Source: SAR86 cluster bacterium (GTDB taxonomy: Bacteria > Pseudomonadota > Gammaproteobacteria > Magnimaribacterales > Magnimaribacteraceae). Taken from it: a stretch of DNA of 64,000 nt. Numbering within the stretch: position 1 is the stretch's first letter; each line of letters opens with the position of its first letter. Location: the NCBI GenBank assembly GCA_023703575.1, contig CP097969.1, forward strand, positions 372,001 to 436,000. Reading direction: 5' to 3'. The notes below the pieces were generated by a model, which had not been told where the DNA came from, made no database searches, and saw nothing but the letters and a program-made list of their open reading frames with translations. Positions 3 through 56,250 of this stretch are shown here, in pieces. The position numbers and the translations under genes were made by a program.

Positions 3-713
3 GGCATGGGAGATCATCCTACTGGCATGGCTTTATATGCAGCAATAATGACAGCTTTATTTAATAGAGAAAAAACAGGAAAGGGGGGAGAAGTATCTAC
101 TTCATTAATGGCTAATGGAGCCTGGGCTAATGGAGTTTTTATCCAGGCAGCTTTAATGGATATTGAATTTCCAGAAAGAACTGAGCCTCTCCCAAGGCAC
201 CCTTTTTACGATTTTTACCAAACAAAAGATGATAGAGAATTTGCACTTGGCATGATTAATTCAAGAATAGAATGGCCGAAACTCACTGAAGTACTAGATA
301 GAGCTGATTGGTTGCAAAGAGAACTATTTAATTTTGACGATGCTTTCCAAAATGCAGATCTACTTAGATCAGAATTATCAGAAGAGTTTAAGAAAAGATC
401 ACTTGACGAAATAAATCAACTTTTACGTAACTCTGGTGTTACTTATGGTGTATTAGGTAAAACTACAGATCATAGAGATGACAAGCAATTTTTAGAAACA
501 AAAACTTTGGTTCCTCTCAGTCATGAATCTTTTGAAAATCTATTAACAATCAATAGTCCTTTCACAATTCAAGATGAGAAAAAGATAGATTTTTCTAGGG
601 CTCCCAATGTAGGTGAACATACTAAAGAAGTTCTGGAGAATATGGGATATTCAGATACTGAATTAGAAGATTTAAAAAATGGATCCTCCATTTATTGGCC
701 TAATGAGCTTTAA
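3..713 (+). CDS. CaiB/BaiF family (class III) CoA-transferase, 5'-truncated by window edge
   Basis: This is the C-terminal part of a formyl-CoA:oxalate CoA-transferase / alpha-methylacyl-CoA racemase type enzyme, which moves CoA between carboxylic acids. The reading frame is open to the window edge. The first in-frame ATG (position 6) lies inside the conserved G-D-H-P-T-G segment, whose Asp matches the catalytic Asp of the family, so that ATG is not the true start. The next segment, A-L-F-N-R-E-K-T-G-K-G, is the family hallmark. About 236 residues are visible; full members are about 380-400. The substrate cannot be inferred. The amidohydrolase gene follows after 3 bases, suggesting cotranscription. 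Confidence 0.85.
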   Translation, partial: GMGDHPTGMALYAAIMTALFNREKTGKGGEVSTSLMANGAWANGVFIQAALMDIEFPERTEPLPRHPFYDFYQTKDDREFALGMINSRIEWPKLTEVLDRADWLQRELFNFDDAFQNADLLRSELSEEFKKRSLDEINQLLRNSGVTYGVLGKTTDHRDDKQFLETKTLVPLSHESFENLLTINSPFTIQDEKKIDFSRAPNVGEHTKEVLENMGYSDTELEDLKNGSSIYWPNEL

Positions 714-716
714 AGA

Positions 717-2399
717 ATGAAAACTTACATTAAACAAATATCAGCTCTTCTCTTCATATCGCTCATCATTTCTTGCTCAAAAGAAGAGGTATGTTACGAA
801 GCAGATTTAGTTTTAGTAAATAGTAAAATCTATACTGCCAATGCTGATCAATGGGAAGCAGCAGCCCTGGCTATTTTAGGTGATAAATTTATCTTTATTG
901 GCAGTAATGACGATTCCTCTGCTTACGCGTGTGGATCTAATAGAGTTTTAGATTTAAAAGATTCCTTTGTATTCCCAGGATTCATTGATGCACATGCACA
1001 TCTTAAAGGCATAGGTTACCGAGAAATAACCCTCAATCTTCAGGGTGCGGACAGTTTGAAGAATATGCTCACCTTGGTTCAAATCCATTCAAATAAATTA
1101 TCGGACGGCGATTGGGTAGTTGGAAGGGGATGGATAGAAAAAAAATGGCCAGAAGGTAGGTTTCCTACTATTGAGGAGTTGGATGCTATTTCCAGTAAAA
1201 AGCCTATTGCCCTGGAAAGGGCAGATGGCCATGCAATTATTGTTAATTCGCTTGCTCTAAAATTAGCAGGAATTGATAGAAGTACCCCCGATCCTATAGG
1301 AGGAAAAATAGATAAAGACTCCAATGGGGAACCTAATGGAGTCTTGATAGACAAAGCATCATCCTTAGTTGAATCTATTATTCCCAAACGCACTAGGGAA
1401 GAAGAAAAGCGAGCTTTAAGGGAAGGACTTAATAGAACAGCGAAAATGGGATGGACACAATTGCATGATGCAGGCTCTCCTTTATCCGATTACGAAATTC
1501 TAAATGAACTTAAAAAAAATGAAGGCTTACCAGTTAGGATCCAATTTTATGTAAGTGATGGAGAAGATGGTAATAAGTTTCTTGATGAAGGCCCTTATTT
1601 AGATCCAGATCATTTCCTTACTTCTAGGGGTATCAAGTTTTACGCCGATGGGGCAATAGGTTCCAGGGGCGCTGCATTCTTCGACAAATATGACGATTAC
1701 GAAACAAAAGGCTTTCTGATATTCCAAAAAGAAGAAACTATCCCAAAGCTAGTTAAAGCCCTTGTGAATGGCATTCAAATACAAACTCATGCTATTGGAG
1801 ATTTGGCAAATAAAATTACTCTTGATTGGTATGAAGAGGCATTCAACAAAGTTTCACCAGAAAATAGAATAATTGAAAATCCTCGATGGAGAGTTGAGCA
1901 TGCTCAAAATATTAAACCCGAAGATCAACAAAGATACTCAGATTTAGAAGTTATAGCTTCAATGCAACCTTCTCATGCGATTGGCGATTTACATTTCGCA
2001 CACAAAAGATTGGGAGAGGAAAGATTAAAAGATGCATATACTTGGAAAAAGTTGATTGAATTAGGTGTTGTTGTTGTAGGTGGATCTGATGCACCTGTTG
2101 AAATAGGTGATCCGCGAATTGAATTTAAGGCCGCCGTTAGCAGAAAAGATTTAGACGGGTTTTATGAAGATTGGTGGAATATTGAAGAAGTGGTTTCTAG
2201 AGAAGAGGCTCTGTATATGTTTACAAAATGGGCGTCCTATTCCGTTTTTGAAGAGGATATAAAGGGAACAATTGAAGTTGGAAAGCTAGCTGATTTAACA
2301 ATATTTAACAAAGATATAATGACAATCCCTGAAGAAGATATTATGAGTTCTGAAGTTATTATGACTATTGTTGGAGGTAAAGTAGTTTATTCAAAGTAA
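717..2399 (+). CDS. Amidohydrolase family lipoprotein (YtcJ/AepA-like)
   Basis: A 560-residue metal-dependent amidohydrolase of the Amidohydrolase_3/YtcJ group. The N-terminus is a lipoprotein signal: basic start, hydrophobic stretch, then lipobox L-I-I-S-C with Cys20, so the protein is probably a membrane-anchored periplasmic enzyme. Family features include G-F-I-D-A-H-A-H (metal-binding His-x-His), a later H-A-I-G-D segment, and the C-terminal G-S-D-A-P-V motif. Bacterial homologues are generally annotated as exoenzyme regulators or amide/imide hydrolases without a defined substrate. It sits 3 bases behind the CoA-transferase gene and is followed at once by a strong bidirectional terminator. 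Family assignment is firm; substrate is unknown. Confidence 0.85.
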   Translation: MKTYIKQISALLFISLIISCSKEEVCYEADLVLVNSKIYTANADQWEAAALAILGDKFIFIGSNDDSSAYACGSNRVLDLKDSFVFPGFIDAHAHLKGIGYREITLNLQGADSLKNMLTLVQIHSNKLSDGDWVVGRGWIEKKWPEGRFPTIEELDAISSKKPIALERADGHAIIVNSLALKLAGIDRSTPDPIGGKIDKDSNGEPNGVLIDKASSLVESIIPKRTREEEKRALREGLNRTAKMGWTQLHDAGSPLSDYEILNELKKNEGLPVRIQFYVSDGEDGNKFLDEGPYLDPDHFLTSRGIKFYADGAIGSRGAAFFDKYDDYETKGFLIFQKEETIPKLVKALVNGIQIQTHAIGDLANKITLDWYEEAFNKVSPENRIIENPRWRVEHAQNIKPEDQQRYSDLEVIASMQPSHAIGDLHFAHKRLGEERLKDAYTWKKLIELGVVVVGGSDAPVEIGDPRIEFKAAVSRKDLDGFYEDWWNIEEVVSREEALYMFTKWASYSVFEEDIKGTIEVGKLADLTIFNKDIMTIPEEDIMSSEVIMTIVGGKVVYSK

Positions 2400-12968: not shown

Positions 12969-13979
12969 ATGAAAAAAGCAAATAGGATAGCTGTTGTTGG
13001 AGCCACAGGAATGGTAGGTAAAGCCTTCCTGTCCATTTTTGAAGAAAAGTTTTTCGTCAATGCAAAGGTAGATTTATTGGCAAGTAAAAAATCTGAGGGA
13101 AAAAAAGTTACTTTTAGAGGTTCAGAATATGTCATCGCAGATCTTGCAGAATATGATTTTAGTAATACAGATCTAGCACTTTTTTCAGCTGGAGCTTCTG
13201 TTTCGGCTAAATTCGCTCCAATTGCTGTTTCCCAAGGTTGTGTGGTTGTAGATAATTCTTCTTGCTTTAGATATGAAGCAGATATACCCCTTATTGTTCC
13301 AGAAGTTAATGGCCATAAGTTAAATGACTATAAGTCACCTGGCATTATCGCAAATCCTAACTGCTCAACAATACAAATGTTGGTTGCACTAAAGCCTATT
13401 CATGACGAATTCAAAATTGAAAGAATAGACATCACTACATTACAGGCTGTATCTGGAACAGGAAAAGAAGCAACAGAAGAGTTACTGGATCAATTGAGCT
13501 CTTATGCAGGCAAAAAAAACATTGAATCTAATATTTATCCAAAACAAATAGCAAATAATGCCCTTCCACAATGCGATGTATTTGAGGAAAACAGGTATAC
13601 GAAAGAAGAAAATAAACTTCTCAAAGAAACGCATAAAATACTTGATCCAAATATACATGTTACTGCTACATGTGTAAGAGTTCCGGTTTTAAATGGTCAT
13701 TCAGAATCTATTCATATTAAAACTGCAAAACCAATATCTGAGAACACTGCAATAAAGGTTATGCAGGAAGCACCTGGTTTAAAAGTGCACTATGGATCTG
13801 GATCACAAGATTACCCAACTGCTGCTACAGATGCTGATGGAGATAACTTAGTTCATGTAGGAAGAATAAGAAAAGATTTGTGGAGTAACAAAAGAATTAA
13901 TTTATGGGTTGTTGCAGATAATCTCCTTAAAGGAGCTGCATTGAATAGTATACAAATCGCAGAATTGATATTTGATTAA
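12969..13979 (+). CDS. asd: Aspartate-semialdehyde dehydrogenase
   Basis: It reduces aspartyl phosphate to aspartate semialdehyde, the branch point to lysine/diaminopimelate, threonine and methionine. The 336-residue protein has the NADP-binding G-A-T-G-M-V-G start and the catalytic N-P-N-C-S-T motif with Cys132. Its partner aspartokinase is encoded about 32 kb away (lysC, 45567-46796). Its position between leuB and a fimV-like gene matches Pseudomonas gene order. Confidence 0.96.
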   Translation: MKKANRIAVVGATGMVGKAFLSIFEEKFFVNAKVDLLASKKSEGKKVTFRGSEYVIADLAEYDFSNTDLALFSAGASVSAKFAPIAVSQGCVVVDNSSCFRYEADIPLIVPEVNGHKLNDYKSPGIIANPNCSTIQMLVALKPIHDEFKIERIDITTLQAVSGTGKEATEELLDQLSSYAGKKNIESNIYPKQIANNALPQCDVFEENRYTKEENKLLKETHKILDPNIHVTATCVRVPVLNGHSESIHIKTAKPISENTAIKVMQEAPGLKVHYGSGSQDYPTAATDADGDNLVHVGRIRKDLWSNKRINLWVVADNLLKGAALNSIQIAELIFD

Positions 13980-13986
13980 CACAGGG

Positions 13987-14322
13987 ATGGAAAATTTTTT
14001 ATTAAGGCTTGAGACTGAGTTTTATTTTATAACAGGTATTTATTTTGAGGGCTTGAGTGGATTGGCACTTGGCCTTCTCTTTTTTTCTTTAACTTTGATT
14101 CTAATTAGATATAAAAGGGAACAAAGGCCACTTGTTACAGATACCGATATTTCAAATGAAATCGGCAATGAAAAAACTGCTAAGGTCAATCTTTCAAGAA
14201 GTTTGATAGAAATGGGTCAGTTAGATGAAGCCAAGCGTCTGCTTGAAGAAGTTTTAAAAGATAATCCTACTGAAAAAGAAGAGAATACAATTAAATTTCT
14301 ACTTTCTAAAATTAATTCTTAA
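13987..14322 (+). CDS. Miniature FimV-like protein: one membrane segment plus FimV C-terminal domain
   Basis: A protein of about 111 residues. After a short N-terminus comes one strong transmembrane segment (about residues 22-41), a polar linker, and a TPR-like helical hairpin (about 66-108) reading K-V-N-L-S-R-S-L-I-E-M-G-Q and A-K-R-L-L-E-E-V-L. This closely resembles the conserved C-terminal domain of FimV. In Pseudomonas, fimV, a gene of roughly 900 codons with a LysM domain, occupies exactly this place between asd and truA. Here the periplasmic part is gone. I prefer the ATG at 13987; a TTG at 13972 overlapping asd is possible, and neither has a good ribosome-binding site. A polar-hub role is inferred from the family only. 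Confidence 0.7.
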   Translation: MENFLLRLETEFYFITGIYFEGLSGLALGLLFFSLTLILIRYKREQRPLVTDTDISNEIGNEKTAKVNLSRSLIEMGQLDEAKRLLEEVLKDNPTEKEENTIKFLLSKINS

Positions 14323-14325
14323 GCA

Positions 14326-15108
14326 ATGGATTCTAGGATAGCTTTAGGGGTTGAGTATGATGGAACTAACTATTTCGGCTTTCAAAAGCAAAACACTACA
14401 AAACAAACCGTACAAGGCTCTCTAGAAGAATCGATTTCAAAGGTTGCAGATCATAAAGTAAAAACTTTATGTAGTGGAAGAACAGATGCGGGTGTTCATG
14501 CCTTTATGCAAGTCATGCATTTTGATACAAAGGCCATAAGATCATCTATTGAATGGACCAGAGGTATCAATTCTTACCTTCCAAAAGATATTAGAGTTTT
14601 ATGGGCAAAAGAAATAGATGAGAGTTTTCATGCTAGGTTCTCTGCTACCAAAAGATCATATATTTACAATATTCTTAATCATTCGACACCCTCGGCGCTT
14701 TGGGCAGATAAGTCGCTATATGTACCTATTAGATTAGATATACAGTCAATGAAAAAAGGCTCTAAATATCTCATAGGAGAACATGATTTTAGCTCCTTTA
14801 GAGGTTCAGGATGTCAATCAAAGACACCTATTAGAAACATTCAAGAAATAAAAATCTCAAGGAATGATGATTTTGTTACATTGGAAATTACAGCAAATGC
14901 TTTCTTACTTCACATGGTTAGAATCATAGTTGGGACTCTAATAATGGTTGGCAAAAAAGAAATACAACCCAAAGAAGTTGATAAAATTCTCAAACAAAAA
15001 AATAGAAAATTAGCAGGTAAGACGGTTAGTTCATCTGGCTTATTTTTTTTAGGACCTAGCTATCCCAATAAATATAAGGTGCCGGAATTTAAAAATAATT
15101 TAATATAA
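14326..15108 (+). CDS. truA: tRNA pseudouridine(38-40) synthase
   Basis: It isomerises uridines 38-40 in the anticodon stem of tRNAs. It has 260 residues. The catalytic Asp54 lies in C-S-G-R-T-D-A-G-V-H-A, the family signature, and the C-terminal F-L-L-H-M-V-R-I-I-V-G-T-L segment is also typical. The gene begins 3 bases after the fimV-like gene. A TATAAT sequence at 15126-15131, downstream of it, may start a separate transcript for the trp genes. Confidence 0.96.
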   Translation: MDSRIALGVEYDGTNYFGFQKQNTTKQTVQGSLEESISKVADHKVKTLCSGRTDAGVHAFMQVMHFDTKAIRSSIEWTRGINSYLPKDIRVLWAKEIDESFHARFSATKRSYIYNILNHSTPSALWADKSLYVPIRLDIQSMKKGSKYLIGEHDFSSFRGSGCQSKTPIRNIQEIKISRNDDFVTLEITANAFLLHMVRIIVGTLIMVGKKEIQPKEVDKILKQKNRKLAGKTVSSSGLFFLGPSYPNKYKVPEFKNNLI

Positions 15109-33407: not shown

Positions 33408-33483
33408 TGGCTCCCCGAGCTGGGCTCGAACCAGCGACCCAATGATTAACAGTCATTTGCTCTACCAACTGAGCTATCGGGGA
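33408..33483 (-). tRNA. tRNA-Asn (GUU)
   Basis: A 76-nt cloverleaf on the minus strand. The acceptor arm TCCCCGA pairs with TCGGGGA, the discriminator is G and CCA is encoded. The D-arm begins AGCTCAGTTGG, the anticodon loop CTGTTAATC gives anticodon GUU, and the T-arm contains GGTTCGAGC. A following hairpin with a T-run terminates it. Confidence 0.97.
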
Positions 33484-56159: not shown

Positions 56160-56250
56160 GGAGAGGTGGCTGAGTGGTTGAAAGCGCTCCCCTGCTAAGG
56201 GAGTATAGGGTAATCCCCTATCGAGGGTTCGAATCCCTCCCTCTCCGCCA
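56160..56250 (+). tRNA. tRNA-Ser (GCU)
   Basis: A 91-nt tRNA with acceptor GGAGAGG/CCTCTCC, discriminator G and encoded CCA. The anticodon stem CTCCC/GGGAG presents GCU, and the long variable arm (a GGG/CCC stem) is typical of tRNA-Ser. The T-loop is GGTTCGAATCC. Confidence 0.97.

Follow-up and report, generated by a model that had tools for sequence, protein, structure and literature searches.

A minimal FimV in SAR86 bacteria keeps a membrane helix and the C-terminal TPR domain at the asd-truA locus

The gene fimV has truA as its neighbor on one side and asd or usg on the other, and its product affects type II secretion in P. aeruginosa. Every protein of the FimV/HubP type is described as combining LysM-like, transmembrane, acidic, and TPR regions (PMC12918733, a 2026 paper). 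LysM is described as critical for polar localization, and the characterized partners of HubP as binding mainly to the acidic modules (PMC8789113, excerpt); FlhF binds to a part of HubP other than the TPR domain (PMC11236974, excerpt). The C-terminal FimV domain is presented as a major hub for clients with a minor role in swimming (PMC12918733, excerpt), and its partners include the GGDEF domain of Shewanella PdeB (PMC9061725, excerpt) and FimL in P. aeruginosa (PMC5285504, excerpt). As for gene order, fimV (named 'lysM') and truA adjoin trpF in other bacteria, and truA adjoins trpF in the Sargasso Sea metagenome (PMC2395257, excerpt). FimV/HubP proteins are large and many-sided, and the role of their most conserved part has so far been hard to define.

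In this work, we analyze a stretch of 64,000 nucleotides, called the window below, from the genome of a SAR86 cluster bacterium, which consists of one contig of 1,591,815 bases. We take the gene order to be leuC-leuD-leuB-asd-X-truA-trpF-trpB-trpA-accD, where X is the minimal fimV; these names, asd and truA included, are our own assignments, made from the translations. The features are as follows, with the evidence in brackets.

13987..14322, plus strand: minimal FimV gene, 111 amino acids and a stop codon (open reading frame, TIGR03504 match, locus, family profile)
14044..14121, plus strand: single transmembrane helix, residues 20-45 (AlphaFold2 helix 20-45, hydropathy window 22-40; Gly 22, 25, and 29 lie within)
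14170..14316, plus strand: FimV C-terminal TPR domain of three helices, residues 62-110 (TIGR03504 at residues 65-93; AlphaFold2 helices; 4mal by profile, 4mal/4mbq by fold)
12969..13979, plus strand: presumed asd, aspartate-semialdehyde dehydrogenase, the upstream gene (locus; in genus g13, its homolog carries the FimV domain as a fusion)
14326..15108, plus strand: presumed truA, tRNA pseudouridine synthase, the downstream gene (locus)

The frame begins with the ATG at 13987 and ends with the stop codon at 14320-14322; 7 bases separate it from the end of asd and 3 bases from truA. The protein would be 5 residues longer from an alternative TTG start at 13972; in most relatives, the first ATG aligns with that at 13987. 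The initial annotation of this DNA had placed a 111-residue protein at the exact asd-truA position of fimV, and this is what the frame and the adjoining genes show: the minimal fimV occupies the position characteristic of FimV/HubP genes. Elsewhere in the window, tRNA genes lie at 33411-33483 (minus strand) and 56160-56247 (plus strand); besides these two, an Rfam scan of the 64-kb window found no family above its gathering score.

Among 18,950 NCBIfam models, the top match of the 111-residue protein is TIGR03504, the FimV C-terminal model (residues 65-93, E = 9.1e-6, 25.6 bits). This search had been set beforehand, in the initial annotation, as the test that could overturn its reading. The match is significant, though it spans 29 of the 44 model positions and stays below the curated cut-off of 30.65 bits; the FimV C-terminal TPR domain is recognizable in the protein, though not by the curated score alone. 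Twelve Pfam families were matched, none above the gathering score, the best being TPR_19 with 24.3 of 25 bits. In fact, no test of the single 111-residue protein passed a curated threshold, and since several Pfam TPR models score comparably below threshold, the scores of this one protein do not settle its FimV identity.

Within the family of the window (f1), TIGR03504 matches 24 of the 28 members at E <= 0.01, with a best E-value of 1.8e-7, and has no match at this level in the other 4; the curated cut-off is exceeded by G017 and G005 only. When a profile of the 28 family sequences was compared with 177,635 PDB sequences, P. aeruginosa FimV (4mal) came second (E = 1.6e-6 over 49 profile positions) and was the best single-stretch match; the top entry, 4y6c (E = 3.4e-7), owes its score to the sum of five weak repeats. 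The AlphaFold2 model of the protein, based on 24 sequences (mean pLDDT 77.9, pTM 0.40), has helices at residues 2-16, 20-45, 62-75, 79-91, and 96-110, the last three of which form the TPR domain. Of the 7 best Foldseek matches among 350,542 chains, 6 are 4mal/4mbq chains (rmsd 1.1-1.2 Å, 45-50 columns); the best E-value is 0.087, and no match reaches E <= 0.001. The identification as FimV rests on the family, the locus, and the intermediates described below, taken together. Profile and fold agree with the initial annotation that only the FimV C-terminal domain is retained, and the structure prediction proposed there gives the FimV TPR fold.

The hydropathy profile contains one hydrophobic 19-residue window, residues 22-40, which together with the AlphaFold2 helix 20-45 identifies the single transmembrane helix that had been read from the sequence. 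The net charge of the helix flanks is -3 before and +1 after, which is a weak difference. Nine residues are invariant across seven genera (28 family sequences), including Gly 22, 25, and 29 in the helix. The model of the LysM-like region, TIGR03505 (FimV_core), has no match at E <= 0.01 in the window's own genome, and none in f1; the LysM region is gone, as had been claimed, and we rejected a split gene with LysM encoded elsewhere on the same ground. The linker from the hydrophobic window to the TPR motif is 27 residues long, and the long acidic cytosolic region is absent. A phage origin was also rejected: there was no phage match at E <= 1e-5, and among 34 pattern matches in viral contigs none was a relative.

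The named relatives of this genome number 23 (15 SAR86 and 8 Gammaproteobacteria), the closest being SAR86 cluster AG-422-M05 and AG-359-K21 (95 and 97% identical); judged by them, family f1 is the SAR86 cluster. By protein search, the minimal FimV is found in 28 of the 35 family genomes, the own genome included, and in all seven genera. It lies directly before truA in all 28 and directly after Asd in 27; at the remaining locus, L018, an Asd fragment lies upstream at a contig end. Its length from the first ATG is 108-119 residues, L029 having no ATG. Other short forms occur in the same order. In genus g12 of family f3, helix and domain make up 98-100 residues at 10 loci, with Asd upstream in every case, and in family f4 they lie in frames of 135-172 residues at 11 loci, in one of which (L076) a script found no TPR motif; TIGR03504 does match its genome, G043, weakly. 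All 11 of these f4 loci (L070-L076, L187-L190) have a chorismate synthase-like gene (name read by eye) in place of asd ahead of the mini FimV.

Across the order, TIGR03504 is matched at E <= 0.01 in 123 of 151 genomes. Four of the 28 genomes without a match (G001, G003, G004, and G016) have the short form by protein search. A search for truA in the other 24 left 17 without a match, in which the region is probably not assembled. As for the 7 genomes with truA but without TIGR03504, 4, all of f4, carry a mini form that has diverged, G137 encodes a full FimV, and in G011 and G127 the locus stops at a contig edge.

Full FimVs stand at the same locus in family f2 and in genera g9 and g17 of f3 (37 loci, frames of 300-502 residues, leaving out L080 with a broken frame and L081 and L082 with frames cut at contig ends). 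The 111-residue protein aligns with the C-terminal part of the long FimVs of f3, with E = 3e-7 for L041, for example. The survey of the asd-truA gap that the initial annotation had suggested thus yields a short form before truA in all 28 family genomes where it was found and a full FimV at the same place in sister lineages. FimV_core is matched at E <= 0.01 in 65 of the 151 order genomes, all of f2 or of g9 and g17, and in none of f1, f4, g12, or g13. At L080 (G104), a full-length fimV is split into several frames, by sequencing errors or as a decayed gene. Further FimV_core proteins appear as frames of about 220-230 residues in f2 (G126:C2, G095:C17, G110:C2, G139:C23, G149:C16, and G144:C1) and of about 375 residues in g9 (L117, L121-L123).

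These full forms allow the order of the losses to be read. In all 30 that were measured (L030-L059), the linker is 32-51 residues long (median 43), as against 238-443 residues in 26 of the 30 best-scoring FimVs of the class, the other 4 being unmeasurable (3 without a helix in the available sequence and 1 fragment). Since all 30 full forms have this short linker, the shortening extends, within what was measured, over the whole order and predates the loss of LysM: the long cytosolic linker shrank first, and the LysM half was lost later. The earlier statement that the long acidic repeats are gone therefore holds for their absence; they did not disappear together with LysM, since the full FimVs of the order have no more than a short stretch there.

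A FastTree tree of TruA and Asd (108 rows) recovers the order as a clade (0.983), f1 with f4 (0.902), f3 (0.991), and g9 with g17 inside f3 (0.929). If regain is impossible, this topology implies three losses of the LysM half; note that many rows contain TruA only, that the FastTree outgroup is not one clade, and that f4 falls inside f1 with weak support (0.53). With IQ-TREE, which used 69 of the 108 rows, f3 is again a clade (97) and two changes are needed; a single clade of all reduced forms is borderline rejected (AU p = 0.0477). The LysM half was thus lost at least twice in the order, and probably three times.

Comparison of the minimal fimV with nine relatives of the genus gave dN/dS of 0.07-0.25 in 6 pairs, dS being saturated in 3; the neighboring genes gave 0.06-0.19 (asd, 8 pairs) and 0.07-0.21 (truA, 6 pairs). 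The highest value within the gene is 0.40, for the N-terminus and helix against L005. The minimal fimV is under purifying selection.

The most surprising relative of the minimal FimV is found in genus g13 of f3, where the FimV domain forms the tail of a 403-residue Asd protein without a membrane helix. This holds for the 7 loci read (L077, L193-L198), one for each of 7 of the 9 genomes; the remaining 2 have no truA match. Among the seven distinct but close sequences, pN/pS is 0.032 for the fused tail and 0.052 for the Asd part, a rough ratio in that any two of the tails differ by 0-2 amino acids. Constraint on the tail looks no weaker than on the enzyme part, and the FimV domain appears to be functional without membrane helix or LysM. 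Since the domain rides here on Asd without a helix, the function shared by all forms cannot lie in a position at the pole or in the membrane.

Reduction is not confined to this order. Outside it, TIGR03504 is matched at E <= 1e-5 in 228 of 276 genomes of the class, and the open frames listed are mostly of 550-1450 residues. Mini FimVs with helix and domain upstream of truA occur outside the order in G284 (f138) and in G195 and G317 (f49), with genomes of 1.9-2.0 Mb; the helix of the G317 protein was read by eye. At the G317 locus (L204, about 893-1973, reverse strand), about 1 kb separates the asd frame from the mini FimV frame and could be the remains of a longer fimV. Several other candidates were rejected as mini forms: L150, L158, and L202 begin at the edge of the available sequence; L203 has an acidic stretch behind its stop and no hydrophobic segment by eye; L172 has the domain in a 99-residue frame without a hydrophobic window; and at L178 neither asd nor truA was found.

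Four partner families were searched in the 151 order genomes. ParB is found in 128, including all 40 of high quality (at least 90% complete); it is the only one of the four in all 40, and does not discriminate. The T2SSE ATPase is found in 97 genomes, with one match in 94 of them, which leaves hardly any PilB/PilT pair, and GGDEF in 66; FlhF has no match above the cut-off in any of the 151 and 10 weak ones. FlhF, the type II secretion ATPase, and GGDEF were rejected as obligate clients on these counts. In the 16 mini or fused genomes of at least 90% completeness, tallied by hand and leaving out G051 (no truA or TIGR03504 match), T2SSE is present in 14 (not G024 or G037) and GGDEF in 12 (not G004, G042, G045, or G057). 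Within g1, the genus of the window, 3 of 19 genomes, most of them incomplete, have the T2SSE ATPase. In the own genome, a type II secretion-like operon lies at L199 and a parA-like gene adjoins parB; beyond the T2SSE and ParB matches, these names were assigned by eye. Its only GGDEF match lies in a histidine kinase-receiver-GGDEF-like protein (L201, G000:C1:990000-994000), which adjoins an EAL-like protein and other receiver proteins, the domain names beyond GGDEF also being assigned by eye. None of the candidates searched is both universal and known to bind the FimV domain.

The reading that we consider probable is that of a reduced FimV/HubP homolog whose TPR docking domain would be tethered to the inner membrane for one conserved cytosolic client, rather than a pole organizer. 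The protein would cross the inner membrane once with its N-terminus outside, as the weak charge difference suggests, and would display the FimV TPR domain in the cytosol. By analogy with the described proteins, what remains would be a docking site of one class that has lost the known targeting part, a selected docking domain for a putative cytosolic client that is most likely held at the inner membrane, with no organization of the cell pole. Dimers in f1 could form through the invariant helix residues Gly22, Gly25, and Gly29, and in g13 the carrier enzyme Asd may replace the helix for the domain. More tentatively, and with some doubt on our part, the domain may be an autonomous module whose function is independent of the pole, of motility, and even of the membrane, serving the same housekeeping client in small-genome lineages, on a helix or, in one genus, on an Asd tail. 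If this is true, that client would be the oldest FimV partner, masked in model species by pilus and flagellar roles.

The initial annotation had suggested a minimal polar hub, a proposal that fares poorly in that the pole-targeting LysM and the acidic partner region are both missing and the g13 form has no helix. It could still be a hub if so short a protein reached the pole or septum by a partner or by membrane shape and positioned ParABS or type II secretion there. The occurrence of ParB in 128 of 151 order genomes and in all 40 of high quality, the parA-like gene beside parB and the type II secretion-like operon of the own genome, and the effect of FimV on type II secretion in P. aeruginosa speak for it, as does the description of the FimV domain as a major client hub (PMC12918733, excerpt). 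We nevertheless judge it unlikely, given the lost LysM half, the Asd-fused form without a membrane helix, the absence of FlhF above the cut-off in 151 genomes, and the 16 of 19 g1 genomes without a T2SS ATPase match, 12 of which, incomplete as they are, have the short FimV. Asd itself could be the partner, through a physical link that keeps, for example, a step near the start of lysine/diaminopimelate synthesis at the membrane. The seven g13 genomes with the 403-residue fusion and its constrained tail fit this idea, as does Asd before the gene in 27 of 28 f1 and 10 of 10 g12 loci; however, a simple deletion can fuse neighboring genes, which makes fusion weak evidence of interaction, and at the 11 f4 loci viewed the preceding gene is not asd. 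We regard such a link as rather improbable.

Two further readings would deny the protein either its descent or its function. One TPR motif resembles another, the TPR_19 and TIGR03504 scores are close, and the repeat protein 4y6c stands above 4mal in the PDB profile search, all of which would suit a TPR membrane protein of generic type that lies between asd and truA by chance and does not descend from FimV. We rejected this reading and give it very little credence in view of the locus, the intermediates, the PDB profile, and the fold: 4y6c sums five weak repeats where 4mal matches in one stretch, 6 of the 7 best structural matches are FimV, full FimV stands at the same locus in sister lineages, and a search of the own genome for a second FimV gave a single TIGR03504 match at E <= 10. 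A decaying, functionless remnant might be suspected from a length of a fifth or less of the usual FimV in small genomes, but the selection data (dN/dS 0.07-0.25; pN/pS 0.032 in the fused tail) contradict it, the frame is open in all 28 family genomes where it was found, and nine residues are invariant over seven genera. This last reading is the one to which we attach the least belief.

The protein is a real, selected, and repeatedly evolved minimal FimV. Nature provides here a deletion series in which the linker was shortened, then the LysM half and once even the helix were removed, and the TPR domain was kept under selection. That the domain is kept alone on an anchor, and in g13 as part of a metabolic enzyme, points to a separate role for this small portion of FimV. 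A partner common to the minimal forms would be the core client of the domain, which has about 50 residues. In a literature search with little coverage of subscription papers, we found no paper on SAR86 with FimV or on TIGR03504; among the best 25 of 56 matches to a broader search, none concerned a minimal FimV by its title or the opening of its abstract, and SAR86 appeared in none of the best 15 of 1,413 matches on secretion, pilus, or pole.

Among known systems, Pseudomonas FimV (4MAL/4MBQ) has the C-terminal TPR domain and one membrane helix in common with the window protein, and its gene also lies at an asd-truA locus. In contrast to it, the window protein has no periplasmic LysM region and a linker of 27 residues, compared with 238-443 in typical class FimVs, and the own genome has one T2SSE ATPase match and so no pilus ATPase pair. 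With 111 residues, the protein is also far from the 550-1450 of most FimV frames in the class. HubP of Vibrio and Shewanella likewise shares the C-terminal FimV domain and the membrane helix, whereas the window protein lacks the polar-targeting domain and the acidic client region, and its order has no FlhF above the cut-off (151 genomes). The full FimVs of f2 and of genera g9 and g17 of f3 have the same locus, a homologous C-terminal domain, and a linker that is already short, but reach 300-502 residues and contain FimV_core. The short FimVs of G284, G195, and G317 show the same combination of helix and FimV domain before truA as the window protein, in separate lineages.
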